A stretch of DNA of 64,000 nt from an uncultured Anaerolineae bacterium (lineage in GTDB: Bacteria > Chloroflexota > Anaerolineae > J036 > Brachytrichaceae). The position numbers and the translations under genes were made by a program. The notes beneath the pieces were generated by a model, which saw only the letters and a list, made by a program, of their open reading frames with translations, did no database searches and was not told the DNA's origin. Each line of letters starts with the position of its first letter. The first letter of the stretch is position 1. Shown one piece after another: positions 27,413 through 33,269 of the stretch. Location of the stretch: contig CALGMA010000003.1 of the NCBI GenBank assembly GCA_937959265.1, positions 62,001 to 126,000 on the forward strand, read 5' to 3'.

Positions 27413-27586
27413 AGAGGACACTGTATCACTGTGCGCACTGGAGGGGCTCGGTCGGTGAGCGCTGAAAGAGAGGCAAAATCGAGGCTGCATCGCGGACGCT
27501 TTGATCCGGGGTAAGGCATACTACGACGTCTTTGACTGTTTTTAATTTCGCTTTAACTGGGCTATGCTAGTTTGAAGGAGGTGTAT

Positions 27587-28558
27587 ATGGCAACTGCCAG
27601 CGGCATGCCATCTAAATTAAGGCGGCGATCTGCAAAGACCAGCGAGCATATCCTGGCATATGGGCTGCTCGCGCCAGCACTGCTGCTCTTTCTTGCATTC
27701 ACGGTCTTCCCTATCGGCTTCGGCTTCTACATCAGCCTGCACAATTGGCGATTGGGGCCGCGCGAGTTCCTCGGCCTGGGCAACTATCTGCGCGCGCTGA
27801 CACCCGGATCGGAATTCTGGCCTTCACTCGGCGCGACGTTGACCTACTCGTTGCTCGCCGTGCCGTTTCAGATCAGCATCGCGCTGACGCTGGCGTATTT
27901 GCTCTTCCAGAAGATCCGCGGCAAATCGCTCTTTCGCGTGATAATGTTCCTGCCGTGGGTGACCTCGACCGTGGCGACAGCGGCGGTGTGGGCACGGCTG
28001 TATAGCCCCGACATCGGCCTTATCAACAGCGTACTTCGCGGGTTGGGTATGCAGCCGTTGCGCTGGCTGCTGGAGGACAAGGGGGTTTTTACCTTGATTG
28101 CCAACTGGCTGGGTGTCACGCTGCCGGACTGGCTGCGCGGGCCGAGCCTGGCCATGGTCGCGGTAGTGATCTACACCACCTGGGTATTCGTCGGTTACAA
28201 CATGACGTTGTTCCTGGCCGGCCTGGGTAATATTCCTGGCGAGATGTACGAGGCAGCCAAAATTGACGGCGCCAACGGTTGGCAGCTCTTCCGTCACATC
28301 ACCTGGCCGTTGCTCTCGCCAACCACGTTCTTCGTCGTGCTCATCACGGTGATTGGCACCCTCAAGGCGTTCAACCACATCTGGGTGATGACCCAAGGCG
28401 ACAACGGCACGCAGACGGCCAGCATCCTGATCTATCGCCAGTTCTACGAGTTCCAGCGCGCCGGCTACGCCAGTGCGCTCGCCTTCCTGCTGTCCGCGGT
28501 GATTTTGCTGGTAACCATTCTGCAAAACCGCGTTGCTGCCGAGCGGGTGAACTATTGA
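27587..28558 (+). CDS. ABC sugar transporter permease, MalF/UgpA type
   Basis: First of two inner-membrane permeases of a CUT1 carbohydrate importer. 323 residues with six hydrophobic segments. The cytoplasmic EAA loop, which binds the ATPase, reads EMYEAAKIDGANGWQLFRHITWP. AAGGAGG just upstream fixes the start at 27587. The second permease starts 3 bp after its stop. No ATPase gene lies in the cluster, as is common where one shared ATPase serves several importers. Confidence 0.9.
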   Translation: MATASGMPSKLRRRSAKTSEHILAYGLLAPALLLFLAFTVFPIGFGFYISLHNWRLGPREFLGLGNYLRALTPGSEFWPSLGATLTYSLLAVPFQISIALTLAYLLFQKIRGKSLFRVIMFLPWVTSTVATAAVWARLYSPDIGLINSVLRGLGMQPLRWLLEDKGVFTLIANWLGVTLPDWLRGPSLAMVAVVIYTTWVFVGYNMTLFLAGLGNIPGEMYEAAKIDGANGWQLFRHITWPLLSPTTFFVVLITVIGTLKAFNHIWVMTQGDNGTQTASILIYRQFYEFQRAGYASALAFLLSAVILLVTILQNRVAAERVNY

Positions 28559-28561
28559 GCC

Positions 28562-29488
28562 ATGGCTACCGCAACGGCTGCCCCACTTGCGCAAGTCGAA
28601 ACGCGCCGTGCGCCCGGCCGGTCGCTGGACCGGGTGAATCCGCTGATCTATCTTGTGCTGATCATCGTCGGCGTCGCTTCGCTGATCCCGTTCGTGTGGA
28701 TGGTGATGACGAGCGTGAAAGACTATGGCGATGTCGTCTCGCTCAGGTTCTGGCCCTGGCCGCCGCTCGGCAATTCCGCGCCGCGCTTCGACAACTTTGC
28801 CGAGGCCATCCGTCTGATTGGCGTGGATCAAGACACCGGCCTGCCGATGTTCTTCCGCCACGTGCTGAACACGGCGCTGGTGACGGCGATTGTCATCGCG
28901 TCCTCGGTCACCACGTCGGTACTGGCGGCCTACGCTTTTGCCCAGTTGGACTTTCCGGCCAAGAATGTCCTGTTTATCCTGGTGCTGGCCACCTTCATGA
29001 TCCCAGAGGAGCTGATTTTGGTGCCGCGCGCGGTGATGATGAACAAGAACTACCTGAACTGGTACAACACCGTGCCGGCGATGGTGGCGCCCTTTTTGGT
29101 CAACGCCTTCGGCATCTTCTTGATCCGGCAATTCTTTCTGCAAATTCCCCGTGATTTGTACGATGCCGCGCGCATAGACGGCGCCGGCCACATGCGCTAC
29201 CTCACCACGGTGATGATCCCGCTCGCCCGTCCGGCTATCCTCACGCTGGCGCTGCTCGAGTTCATCTGGACGTGGAACGAGTTCCGTTGGATTCAGCTCG
29301 TCACGTCCAGCTCGAACATGCGCACGGTGTCGGTGGGGCTGGTGGGCTTCTTGCAGACCGACGGCGGCGCACAGACGCAACTGGCCATGGCGGTAGCAGT
29401 CATGGTCGTGCTGCCGGTGGTCGTGCTGTATTTCTTCACTCAGCGCTACTTTACCGAGGGCATCACAACGACCGGTTTGAAGGGTTGA
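28562..29488 (+). CDS. ABC sugar transporter permease, MalG/UgpE type
   Basis: Second permease of the importer, 308 residues, six hydrophobic segments. The EAA loop reads DLYDAARIDGAGHMRYLTTVMIPLARP. It keeps the family opening LIPFVWMVMTSVKDYGD and the late ending QRYFTEGITTTGLKG. It is 3 bp from the preceding permease, so the two are translationally linked. Confidence 0.91.
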   Translation: MATATAAPLAQVETRRAPGRSLDRVNPLIYLVLIIVGVASLIPFVWMVMTSVKDYGDVVSLRFWPWPPLGNSAPRFDNFAEAIRLIGVDQDTGLPMFFRHVLNTALVTAIVIASSVTTSVLAAYAFAQLDFPAKNVLFILVLATFMIPEELILVPRAVMMNKNYLNWYNTVPAMVAPFLVNAFGIFLIRQFFLQIPRDLYDAARIDGAGHMRYLTTVMIPLARPAILTLALLEFIWTWNEFRWIQLVTSSSNMRTVSVGLVGFLQTDGGAQTQLAMAVAVMVVLPVVVLYFFTQRYFTEGITTTGLKG

Positions 29489-29504
29489 CTCGAGGTAAGG
29501 GGAG

Positions 29505-29665
29505 GTGATGGGTATAGGCTTATCCCGTACGGTGGATGTCGTAATTTGTAACTGATGATTGACAATCGCGGATTGGTGATCGGCTGAGTCCAAGCCGGCG
29601 ACCAATGACGACCGGTAACCAGTAGCTGACAACAGACAACTAGAGAAGACAATCAGAGACTAGGA
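29505..29665. repeat. Stutter repeat between permease and binding-protein genes
   Basis: The spacer is full of near-repeats of AACTGATGATTGACAATCG and its complement, with GACCAATGACGACCGGTAACC and GACAACAGACAACTAG, ending in the AGGAGG of the next gene. It may be transcribed within the operon and could form RNA structure. Confidence 0.5.
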
Positions 29666-29672
29666 GGAAACT

Positions 29673-31124
29673 ATGACACGCAAACTCATTCCATTTGTGG
29701 CTGCGATGGCCATGTTGATGGCGGCCTGCGCGGCACCGGCCACACAAGCACCCGCGCCGACTGAGGCGCCTGCAGCCACACAAGCACCCGCGCCGACCGA
29801 GGCTCCTGCGCCGACTGCCGAGCCGGCCACCGGCGTGGATGCGATCACCCTGAGCAAGGACAACCCCACGGAGATCCTGTTCTGGCATCGCTACTCCGGC
29901 GGCGCGCAGAAGTTCGTCGAACAGTTCGTCGAGAAGTTCAACGCCGAGAACGAGTTCGGCATCAAAGTCACCGCCGAGAAGATTGACGGCAGCTACGCCG
30001 ACCTATACAGCAAGATCAACGCCGCGATTCAAGGCGGCACGCCGCCCAACATCGCGCAGGCCTATCAGAACCAGGCATCGTTCTATCGCCTGGACGGCAA
30101 CGTGATTGACCTCGCGCCGTTCATCACCAGCAAGAAGTACGGCCTGACCCAGGAAGAGATCAACGACTACTTCGCCTTCTTCCTGGAGAGCGACAAGAAT
30201 CCGCAGTTCCCCGGCGAGGTGCTGGGCTGGCCGACCAGCCGCTCGGCCGCCGTGCTCTACGTCAACCTGGACTGGTTGAAGGAGCTGGGCGCCGAAGAGC
30301 CGCCGAAGACTCTGGCCGAGTTCGAGGAGCTGGCCTGCAAGGCATCCGACCCGGCCAATGAGCGCTACGGCCTGGCCTGGCAGAACGACATCAGCAACTT
30401 TGCGGCGTTGGTGTTTGCCAACGGCGGGCGCGTGCTGAGCGAGGATGCCACCAGCTATGCCTTCAACAGCGAGGCCGGCGTGGAGGCGTTGTCGTTGCTC
30501 AAGCGCCTCTTCGAGAACAAGTGCGCCGTCGAGATCCCTAGCGCCGAGCGCTTCGGCGAGCAGACGCGCTTTGCCGGCCAGAAAGTGCTGTTCGTGATGG
30601 CTTCCAGCACCGGCCTGCCGTTCTACGCGGATGCGGTGGCGAAGGCCGAGAAGCCCTTCCGCTGGACTTACGTGATGTTCCCGCAGAAAGATGCGGCCAA
30701 GCCGGTGGTGGACATCTACGGCGCGTCGTGGTCGGTCTTCAAGAGCGCGCCGGAGAAGGAGCTGGCTTCGTGGCTGTTCCTCAAGGCGTTCACCGAGCCG
30801 GAGAACATCGCCGGCTGGGCGAACGCGTCGGGCTACATGGCCGTGCGCAAGAGCGCCGCGCCGAAAGCGATCGAGACGGTGAAGAACGACGAGCGCTACA
30901 AGAACTTCCCCGAAGCGGCCGAGGCTTACGCGCGCTTGTATGACATGGTGGCGTTTGGCGCGGTCGAGGCGCCCGTCGCCGGCTATGACCCTGTGCGCAA
31001 GCTGATGAGCGAGGTCGTTTCGATGGTCGCGATCAAGGGCGAGGGTGATGTGAAGGCAGCCCTGGATAAGGCCGTTGAAGAGGCTAACGCGGTGCTGAAA
31101 GAAAACGCGCCCGGCGGTTACTAG
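29673..31124 (+). CDS. Extracellular sugar-binding lipoprotein of the ABC importer
   Basis: 483 residues. A signal peptide ends in a lipobox (MLMAACA), so the mature protein is anchored by a lipidated Cys. A low-complexity linker follows, encoded by a 36-bp tandem repeat (29739-29810 plus a partial copy) that yields ATQAPAPTEAPA units. The rest is a family 1 solute-binding protein: LFWHRYSGGAQKFVEQFVEKFN, then GGTPPNIAQAYQNQ, then NVIDLAPF. Ligand is probably an oligosaccharide or glycerol phosphate ester; unproven. Confidence 0.9.
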   Translation: MTRKLIPFVAAMAMLMAACAAPATQAPAPTEAPAATQAPAPTEAPAPTAEPATGVDAITLSKDNPTEILFWHRYSGGAQKFVEQFVEKFNAENEFGIKVTAEKIDGSYADLYSKINAAIQGGTPPNIAQAYQNQASFYRLDGNVIDLAPFITSKKYGLTQEEINDYFAFFLESDKNPQFPGEVLGWPTSRSAAVLYVNLDWLKELGAEEPPKTLAEFEELACKASDPANERYGLAWQNDISNFAALVFANGGRVLSEDATSYAFNSEAGVEALSLLKRLFENKCAVEIPSAERFGEQTRFAGQKVLFVMASSTGLPFYADAVAKAEKPFRWTYVMFPQKDAAKPVVDIYGASWSVFKSAPEKELASWLFLKAFTEPENIAGWANASGYMAVRKSAAPKAIETVKNDERYKNFPEAAEAYARLYDMVAFGAVEAPVAGYDPVRKLMSEVVSMVAIKGEGDVKAALDKAVEEANAVLKENAPGGY

Positions 31125-31307: not shown

Positions 31308-31823
31308 ATGAGCGATGCGTTGATTGATGTCGTGGTTGCTGCGTTCAATGATGCGATGGCGGCAACGGCAGCGATGGATCGGCTGGTACAGATGCGACGC
31401 GAAGGCCAGATCGAACTCAAGGCAAGGGCGATCGTGCACCGCGACGATGATGGACGCTTGCACATCAAGGAGATGGACGATCCCGGCGCGGCGCGCGGCG
31501 CCGTCGTGGGGGGCGCAGTTGGCGGCGTGATTGGGCTGTTGCTTGGCCCGCTGGCGGTCCCTGCTGCGGCTGTCGGCGCAGCCATCGGCGCGTTGACCGA
31601 GAAGCTGCATGACGCCGGCATCGAGGACGGCAAACTAGAGCGGCTGGGCGAGGGGTTAAAGACCGGCGTTGCCGCCGTGGTTGCTATGACGACGGCGGAC
31701 TCTTCGGCCGAGGTGCAGCGCCTTATGCGCGAAGCCGGCGCAAGCGTGGTCACCGAAGGTTTGAACGAGTACACCTACCAGAAGCTGGCTGCGATTTCCG
31801 GCGCGTCTCAATCATCATCGTAG
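31308..31823 (+). CDS. DUF1269-type membrane protein
   Basis: 171 residues. An N-terminal alpha/beta part (LIDVVVAAFNDAMAATAAMDRLVQM) is followed by a Gly/Ala-rich hydrophobic hairpin, GAVVGGAVGGVIGLLLGPLAVPAAAVGAAIGALTEK in the middle, then a second alpha/beta part ending SVVTEGLNEYTYQKL. That arrangement is typical of the DUF1269 family, whose function is not known to me. GGGAGG precedes the start. It converges with the selenoprotein candidate, 17 bp apart. Confidence 0.8.
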   Translation: MSDALIDVVVAAFNDAMAATAAMDRLVQMRREGQIELKARAIVHRDDDGRLHIKEMDDPGAARGAVVGGAVGGVIGLLLGPLAVPAAAVGAAIGALTEKLHDAGIEDGKLERLGEGLKTGVAAVVAMTTADSSAEVQRLMREAGASVVTEGLNEYTYQKLAAISGASQSSS

Positions 31824-31840: not shown

Positions 31841-32434
31841 TCAGTCAGTCTGGCTGCTGCCAACTGCTCCAACTGCCCGCAGCAGCTCGGCATCGTCAGG
31901 ATAGTCGCCGGCGTGCTTGCTGTAATAGGCGAAGCTCACGTGTCCATCTTCGCCGATCACGAACATGCCCGGCATTTGGAATGGATCGCCCACCGGTCTG
32001 CCGATTGGTAGCCCGTCGAACTTGCCCTCTAGTGTTGCCTGCGCGCCTTTCAGCCAGACCGCCGGCCCGAACAACTGGTCGGTGTTGCCGCGCGCCAGAC
32101 CATAAGCGCGGTACGAGGTTGCCTCCGGATCGCAGAAGCAGCGCACACCGGGCGCGCGTTCGCCGCAGAATCGCTCGGTCTCCTCAGGCCGGCCCATCGT
32201 CACGACGACGACCTGCGCGCTGGCAGCTTCGATGCGCGGGTTGAGCTTGGCCAACCTGGCCAATTCCGACCGGCAGAACACTCAGCCAAAATGGCGCAGG
32301 AAGACCAGCAAGACGCGCCCTTGTCGCAGCAACTCCGCCAGCGTGACGCACTCGCCGGTGGTTTTGGCCAACGCAATGTTTGGAGCGACATCGCCCACCT
32401 GCAACCGTGGGCTGACCGTGGGTCGTTCACTCAT
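31841..32434 (-). CDS. Peroxiredoxin-like selenoprotein candidate (in-frame TGA read as Sec)
   Basis: One frame from the ATG at 32434 to the TGA at 31841 is interrupted only by a TGA at 32282-32284. Read as selenocysteine, it gives a 197-residue thioredoxin-fold redox protein of the AhpC/TSA (Prx-like) type. It has VSPRLQVGDVAPN, then a VLLVFLRHFG strand, then U51-V-F-C54, the U-x-x-C form of the CxxC active site. Homologues from memory have Cys there (FLRHFG-C-x-FC-R). Downstream sequence stays in frame and family-like (GPAVWLKGAQATLEG, MPGMFVIGEDGHVSFAYYSKHAGDYP). A SECIS-like hairpin follows the TGA. A plain nonsense mutation is the alternative. Confidence 0.75.
32247..32263 (-). promoter_or_regulatory. 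Bacterial SECIS-like hairpin for UGA recoding
   Basis: On the mRNA strand, TTGGCC-AGGTT-GGCCAA forms a perfect 6-bp stem with a 5-nt loop, beginning 18 nt after the TGA. The loop lies 25-29 nt downstream and has a G in its first two positions. Both agree with the published bacterial SECIS pattern (loop about 16-37 nt from UGA, early G). The E. coli fdhF upper hairpin is also 17 nt with an AGGU-type loop. Confidence 0.65.
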
Positions 32435-32471: not shown

Positions 32472-33269
32472 TCAGCGCCGGCGCGTCCACTCGTCGTTCG
32501 CATACTTTGTGGCGCGCAGCTCTGCTGCGCAGCGCAGTTCGTCCGCCGTCAACACGCCGACGGTGAATCGGATGTCCAGCGCCTCGGCGAAGGCGCGCTG
32601 CCACGTTTCCGCGGCTGCGTCCCATGATACAGGGCGCGCCAGCACATCCTGCAGCGTTGCAGCGTGGGCGCGCACCTGCTCCGGTGGGGGTGCATCGAGC
32701 AGGTAGGTGCAGATGCGCGCAATGTCGCCGTGCAGCGGTAAGCTGCCGTGCTGAAGCACGCCGTCTACGCGTCGCCACTGCGCGCTGCCCACCAGCTTCC
32801 GGCCGGCGCCGACGACTTCGTAGTCGCTGGGCGCTTCAAAGCACACCGGGCCTTTGGCTCTGTTCTCTTTGGCCACGCGGTTGGCGCTGACGCCCGGCAC
32901 ACCGAGCAGACGCAACGCGCCCATGATTGCCTCCGCAATGCGCCGATACGAAGTCATCACGTCGCCTTCGGCGATCGGGTGGGTGATGGGCAGCGACACG
33001 CTGTAGGTCAGCTCGTCGGCGTGCAAGATGGCCAACCCGCCGGTCGGGCGGCGCACGATGCCGATGCCGTCGGCCCGACAACGCGCCTCGTCAACGGAGT
33101 CAATGCGTTGTGATTGGCCCAGGCTGATGGTCGGCAGCTGCCAGTCGTAGAGTCGAAGTGTGGGCGGTTGTTGTCCGGCGCTCACCGCCCGCGAGATAGC
33201 CTCATCGCGGGCCATGTTTGTTGCGCCGTCATGCGCGCCGTCGTAGATCAATCGGAATTCGAAAGGCAT
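32472..33269 (-). CDS. Lipoate-protein ligase / octanoyltransferase family protein
   Basis: Attaches lipoate or octanoate to lipoyl domains, such as the E2 subunit encoded at 11874. 265 residues with the family signature RRPTGGLAILHADELTYSV, the lysine-containing KLVGSAQWR, and QHGSLPL. The short form resembles LipM/LplA catalytic domains without the accessory domain. LplA, LipM or LipL activity cannot be distinguished by eye. Confidence 0.87.
   Translation of the reverse strand: MPFEFRLIYDGAHDGATNMARDEAISRAVSAGQQPPTLRLYDWQLPTISLGQSQRIDSVDEARCRADGIGIVRRPTGGLAILHADELTYSVSLPITHPIAEGDVMTSYRRIAEAIMGALRLLGVPGVSANRVAKENRAKGPVCFEAPSDYEVVGAGRKLVGSAQWRRVDGVLQHGSLPLHGDIARICTYLLDAPPPEQVRAHAATLQDVLARPVSWDAAAETWQRAFAEALDIRFTVGVLTADELRCAAELRATKYANDEWTRRR

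Follow-up and report, generated by a model that had tools for sequence, protein, structure and literature searches.

The locus described here raises the question of whether the TGA that interrupts an otherwise continuous reading frame ends translation or is itself translated. Within the window, by which we mean the whole 64,000-nucleotide stretch of DNA analysed, a continuous 198-codon frame runs along the minus strand from 32434 to 31841, specifying 197 residues and ending with a TGA at 31843-31841. Its single internal stop is the TGA of codon 51 (32284-32282), which is flanked as in FLRHFG-U-VFC-R. A frame of this length with one TGA had been reported in the preliminary description, which gave no strand; it is borne out and lies on the minus strand. 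The downstream frame of 146 residues to which that description also drew attention is present in the list of open reading frames as 31841-32281, and its GTG start at 32281 is the codon immediately after the in-frame TGA. The GC content by codon position is alike on the two sides, at 0.66/0.46/0.74 before the TGA and 0.67/0.50/0.76 after it. We consider it very probable that codon 51 is decoded as selenocysteine (Sec) and that the gene encodes a selenoprotein. The computed basis for this comprises the frame, conservation of the TGA, Cys in distant relatives, a covarying SECIS-type hairpin, the sel genes and the fold, from which we infer the translation event. The elements of the predicted gene are as follows.

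31841..32434, minus strand: gene for a predicted Prx-like UxxC selenoprotein with Sec at residue 51 and Cys at residue 54, based on the frame, the family matches and the codon in relatives
32282..32284, minus strand: TGA at codon 51, predicted to be read as selenocysteine; TGA in 9/9 same-genus genomes and TGT or TGC in 74/74 distant loci
32273..32275, minus strand: TGC for Cys54, the second half of U-x-x-C; TGC or TGT in 59/59 TGA loci and 90/90 Cys loci
32247..32263, minus strand: SECIS-type hairpin UUGGCCA(GGU)UGGCCAA, 24-25 nt after the UGA, based on the contrast between TGA and Cys forms and on covariation in relatives

The identity of codon 51 in related genes bears directly on the question. 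Among named bacterial and archaeal genomes, a scan identified 100 relatives, from which 80 loci were kept. Codon 51 is TGA in the six close ones, which share 83-91% identity and come from records of Candidatus Roseilinea, Thermoflexales and Anaerolineae, and the 74 distant ones (about 30-41% identity), mainly from Saprospiraceae and other Bacteroidota but also from Armatimonadota, Acidobacteriota and others, all have TGT or TGC, as the preliminary description had expected in anticipating Cys at this site. Within the window's class, a match at E 0.001, often a weak or incomplete one, was obtained in 233 of 396 sampled genomes. The 69 loci examined comprise the top 30 and a further 39, the latter (selD apart) made up of the paralogue from the window's own genome and 38 loci from the listed matches, mostly by rank. 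Codon 51 is TGA in 53 of these 69 and Cys in 16, with no other residue, counts that describe a non-random sample since partial, weaker and some other class matches were omitted. All nine sampled genomes of the same genus carry the TGA, the window's own included, with the other eight at 78-94% identity; in the same family outside the genus, TGA is found in three of four loci at 48-50% identity and TGC in the fourth (L113). In alignment, each of 40 rows has either Cys or TGA in the column of codon 51, and the second Cys of the motif is retained in all 149 loci (59 TGA and 90 Cys). The six close named loci lie on the same contigs as six class loci, which places six duplicates within the 59 TGA loci, and the fairer figures are those for distinct sequences, 48 TGA and 90 Cys. 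Relatives on plasmids (124 records) are all below 60% identity. Close relatives with Cys and no hairpin had been named beforehand as evidence that would speak against Sec; the close relatives carry TGA, including all of those in the genus, and Cys appears farther out, in forms that mostly have no hairpin.

One copy is at odds with the genome to which it is assigned. The gene at L105/L020, on a contig of 3799 bases (G238:C26), is 90% identical to the window's gene and thus as close as the same-genus copies, though G238 belongs to another genus. This genome has the TGA locus, yet none of selA, selB and tRNA-Sec was found over cut-off in it, and the 3.8-kb contig was probably wrongly binned.

Published rules for bacterial SECIS elements, as given in the legend to Fig. 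2 of PMC13188914, specify a loop of 3-9 nt, an upper stem of 4-16 bp, a G in the first two loop positions, a distance of 16-37 nt from the UGA and a minimum free energy of at most -7.5 kcal/mol. The hairpin in the window agrees with them, having a loop of 3 (or 5) nt, 6-7 bp and a G at loop position 1 or 2; in the alternative reading of 32263-32247, 6 bp close the loop AGGUU. Folded alone, it has an energy of -8.8 kcal/mol. The 55-nt region is no more stable than shuffled versions of it (z -0.90), 39 of 200 of which equal its stability, and Rfam gave no SECIS match, which is weak evidence either way. What is informative for the hairpin is the contrast between TGA and Cys forms together with covariation, rather than the folding energy of the 55-nt region. 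Of the 48 distinct TGA sequences, 36 form at least five pairs in a fixed register, as do 2 of the 90 distinct Cys sequences, those of L081 and L113; with duplicates kept, the TGA figure becomes 47 of 59 loci and that for Cys stays at 2 of 90. Looser treatment of the inner ends gives 47 of 59 for TGA, again with duplicates, and 9 of 90 for Cys. Fewer than five pairs form in the fixed register in 12 of the 48 distinct TGA sequences. Best-stem scores differ between the distinct TGA and Cys sequences (Mann-Whitney p = 8e-14, with relatedness not corrected), and 40 of the 48 sequences with TGA, as against 43 of the 90 with Cys, have a G at loop position 1 or 2.

Covariation was assessed after sorting the loci by best-pairing loop length, and rows that did not fit were omitted from both sets. 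In set 1 (13 sequences; a 17-locus group minus L135, L136, L139 and L150), six of seven pairs are double-changed and the score is 0.582 against 0.243 for shuffled data, while in set 2 (15 sequences; a 20-locus group minus L140, L147, L149, L167 and L170) three of six pairs are double-changed and the score is 0.559 against 0.269. Both scores exceed those of all 500 shuffles, and slid registers reach at most 0.203; the count of double-changed pairs in set 2 is reached by 26 of 500 shuffles. The analysis covers the 17- and 20-locus groups, and the 11-locus group with the window's own relatives lies outside both. Loci L111 and L112 share the LARLAK stretch of the window, and paired synonymous changes there preserve the stem; the L111 hairpin alone folds with -4.8 kcal/mol, short of the -7.5 rule. 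Five further TGA loci (L140, L142, L147, L149 and L150) form a separate group with RHFG-U-x-FC, whose neighbours in the tree are Cys forms of Acidobacteriota and Kapaibacterium. The hairpin is absent from this group in the registers tested, and the group may use a different SECIS placement.

Decoding of UGA as Sec depends on dedicated machinery, and the preliminary description had proposed a search for the sel genes as a check. The window's genome (4.0 Mb in 52 contigs, completeness 94.22, contamination 5.12) contains selA (524 bits), selB (326) and selD (361), all above cut-off, as well as a tRNA-Sec with 72.6 bits that ARAGORN calls as tRNA-SeC with anticodon tca. This call matters, as the RF01852 cut-off is 47 and a tRNA-Ser reaches 47.9 bits. 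With presence judged at E 1e-60, selA is found in all nine same-genus genomes, and its presence is therefore not explained by a single contaminated bin. Across the sampled class selA occurs in 318 of 396 genomes, and because it is this common its co-occurrence fails to discriminate between Sec and Cys forms: it is present in 41 of 48 genomes with a TGA locus and 14 of 16 with a Cys locus among the examined loci. In the seven TGA genomes with no selA at this threshold, selB is over cut-off in six. Two further genes of the window's own genome (G000) carry an in-frame TGA.

G000:C6:171103-172038 (L132:57-1160), minus strand of L132: selD with an in-frame TGA in ASCAGUAGK, predicted selenoprotein
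G000:C4:55548-56138 (L131:349-939), plus strand of L131: second Prx-like gene with a TGA, in RHLA-U-HYC, predicted selenoprotein

The TGA in selD is at what we take to be the expected Sec site. The second Prx-like gene has a strong SECIS-type hairpin, CUGGUGC(AGUU)GCACCAG, and scores 113 bits against NF040769, below the cut-off of 120. Together these genes point to an active Sec system in Roseilinea-type Chloroflexota, with no fewer than three predicted selenoproteins, namely two Prx-like proteins and SelD.

The protein obtained by reading through the TGA matches Pfam AhpC-TSA (PF00578) with 58.1 bits against a cut-off of 26, with AhpC-TSA_2 and Redoxin also matching, and residues 16-187 match the NCBIfam model NF040769 (SelL-related redox protein) with 150.7 bits against a cut-off of 120. 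Modelled with Sec as Cys, the protein is predicted by AlphaFold to adopt a thioredoxin/peroxiredoxin fold (pLDDT 89.5, pTM 0.87), in which strands occupy residues 21-45 and U51 lies directly before a long helix at 52-70. The 50 best PDB matches listed by Foldseek are mostly peroxiredoxins, with LsfA first and AhpE and Bcp among them. Human prostamide/prostaglandin F synthase (PDB 9us9 and 9usa, presumably the product of PRXL2B/FAM213B) ranks second by fold with a TMt of 0.80 and is the closest solved protein by sequence (2.4e-8). Its Cys44/Cys47, which are replaced by Ser in 9usa, align with U51/C54. This enzyme shares the fold with the window's protein and differs in being eukaryotic, in having CxxC where UxxC stands here and in sequence, with 23% identity in the fold match.

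What this protein does is a separate question from how codon 51 is read. A likely role is that of a thioredoxin-fold selenol/thiol oxidoreductase, and we moderately favour a disulfide oxidoreductase over a peroxidase. That the gene encodes a selenoprotein which is instead a peroxidase, a peroxiredoxin proper, would fit the AhpC-TSA match and the prevalence of peroxiredoxins among the listed fold matches. The motif of peroxiredoxins is T-x-x-C, and the corresponding motif of Sec-containing peroxiredoxins is given as TxxU in PMC13188914. The window's protein has neither, residue 48 (U-3) being His, and its nearest relative among solved sequences is a prostamide/PGF synthase with CxxC. The missing T-x-x-C and this closest relative of solved structure favour the selenol-thiol oxidoreductase, and we regard the peroxidase as unlikely, though not strongly so.

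Three other readings concern the TGA itself. Were it an ordinary stop, the locus would be a pseudogene or two pieces, a 50-residue peptide and the 146-residue protein from GTG 32281, and the presence of the latter in the open reading frame list is in keeping with this. The TGA is, however, shared by every sampled genome of the genus, with the protein of both flanks conserved; codon-position GC is alike on its two sides; and a protein started at the GTG would be deprived of strands 21-45 and of the catalytic residue. A weak further point is that no clear ribosome-binding site is seen by eye before the GTG, nor is one seen before the ATG. An ordinary stop is therefore very improbable. An error of sequencing or assembly that turned TGC or TGT into TGA would be in line with the Cys codons of distant relatives, but the identical TGA occurs in eight other genomes of the genus, including five of the six close named records, and the hairpin goes together with the TGA forms; as the same TGA recurs in other genome assemblies, such an error is very unlikely, to the point of being hardly credible. 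An equally negligible probability attaches to UGA being read as Trp or another residue through reassignment of the code or a suppressor tRNA, a reading for which no support was found: the gene itself terminates with TGA, the tca-anticodon tRNA at L003 is called tRNA-SeC (ARAGORN, four loci scanned), and the site is Cys in all 90 non-TGA loci.

For the decoding of codon 51 as Sec, we propose the following course of events. SelA would make Sec-tRNA(Sec) from selenophosphate supplied by SelD, and SelB carrying this tRNA would bind the hairpin within the coding sequence past the UGA, so that Sec would be inserted at codon 51 instead of termination. In the folded protein, Sec51-x-x-Cys54 at the helix start could form a two-electron redox centre, in which the Sec51 selenol may attack a disulfide or a peroxide and Cys54 may resolve the product as a U51-C54 selenenylsulfide. 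A cellular reductant such as thioredoxin would then restore the Sec51/Cys54 pair.

The mixture of Sec and Cys forms within one class invites the question of how one has replaced the other. A quick tree was built from 86 proteins (52 Sec and 34 Cys). For the class rows the site was masked; of the 74 distant Cys loci 18 were included, and L105 was omitted as a duplicate of L020. The Sec/Cys label changes at least nine times on this tree, four of the changes being forced by well-supported branches; alone, the tree cannot separate Sec gain from Sec loss. Two Cys forms, L117 and L113, nest among Sec forms.

G270:C2:883237-883776: L117, Cys form (TGT), the sole Cys row beside 9 Sec rows in a clade with support 96

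In G270, selA was not found at E 1e-60, and neither selB nor tRNA-Sec came over cut-off. In the register shared by its Sec sisters, L117 has a hairpin of 7 bp, longer there than in any other of the 90 Cys loci. The closing pair of this hairpin has been lost, which puts it outside the stricter fixed-register count. L113 (G218; TGC) is the single Cys row beside 12 Sec rows in a clade with support 99. Its genome has retained selA, selB and tRNA-Sec, and the 6-pair hairpin of L113 is in a register other than that of its nearest Sec relatives. The L117 hairpin is possibly a relic of a SECIS element. Against relics, 9 of the 90 Cys loci have at least five pairs in one of three registers, and one of them, L081 from Actinomycetota, has eight pairs, so that the pairing in L117 and L113 may be due to chance. 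We tentatively suggest that the family has swapped Sec and Cys several times within one class and that reversals to Cys leave readable SECIS relics, a reading we find plausible without yet leaning towards it. According to PMC13188914, documented changes from Sec to Cys concern mainly FdhA and SelD. If the suggestion is true, the loss of Sec in this family would be readable as a sequence of steps. The mixed Sec and Cys forms, with hairpins that mostly track the codon, provide a natural series for studies of Sec-Cys replacement.

The window's gene is a further member of a redox family already known to include selenoproteins. The 'Prx-like thiol:disulfide oxidoreductase' family (PF00578, UxxC/UxxU) is among those predicted with high confidence in a 2026 review (PMC13188914), and the same family is listed in a 2022 review (PMC9312934). 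The marine GOS survey counts 225 Prx-like 1 UxxC selenoproteins with pfam00578 (PMC2398784), and these resemble the window's gene in domain and motif, by description. In a 2006 survey (PMC1794560), Chloroflexi have three selenoproteins in three families, and the Prx-like thiol:disulfide oxidoreductase family is entered with the number 8. Sec in the phylum is likewise not new, since Sec-containing formate dehydrogenases are described in deep-sea Chloroflexi (PMC5736913). The literature on selenoproteins of Chloroflexi, Chloroflexota and Anaerolineae, as far as it was covered, yielded no paper on this gene, and the four terms sought in the deep-Sep paper (PMC12013277) were not found there. The preliminary description thus stands where it proposed a probable selenoprotein, which the conserved TGA, the hairpin and the sel genes support, and gives way on novelty, the family being already listed as one of selenoproteins.

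Compared with the Prx-like thiol:disulfide oxidoreductases (representative WP_010940744.1), the window's gene is alike in PF00578 and one Sec in UxxC, by comparison of domain and motif, and unlike in coming from a Roseilinea-type Chloroflexota lineage. SelL has two Sec in UxxU. The window's protein, although it matches the SelL-related model NF040769 above cut-off, has Cys at the second motif position (codon 54, TGC) and so differs from SelL proper. The TGA form of the redox family to which the window's gene belongs is found in 48 of the 64 class genomes with examined loci, and with selA common in the class, such genes may often be cut short in annotation. A reading of raw sequence without tools had in this case picked out a selenoprotein that the tests support as real.

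The surroundings of the gene include the following features.

32472..33269, minus strand: lipoate-protein ligase-like gene (PF21948, 105.8 bits), directly upstream at 37 nt
31308-31823, plus strand: DUF1269 protein (PF06897, 59.7 bits), convergent to the selenoprotein gene
27572-31124, plus strand: two permease-like frames (by eye, from translation), then a solute-binding protein (PF13416, 108 bits)

No clue to function comes from the neighbours, as the 3.5-kb loci L111-L114 contain none of the six that were tested, and a match to the DUF1269 protein is absent from several same-genus loci, for example L018, L019 and L102. Five of the six close named loci keep the order uracil-DNA glycosylase, aminopeptidase, lipoate-protein ligase and selenoprotein; the contig of L020 begins inside the ligase. 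The genes at 27572-31124 look like an ABC uptake operon.
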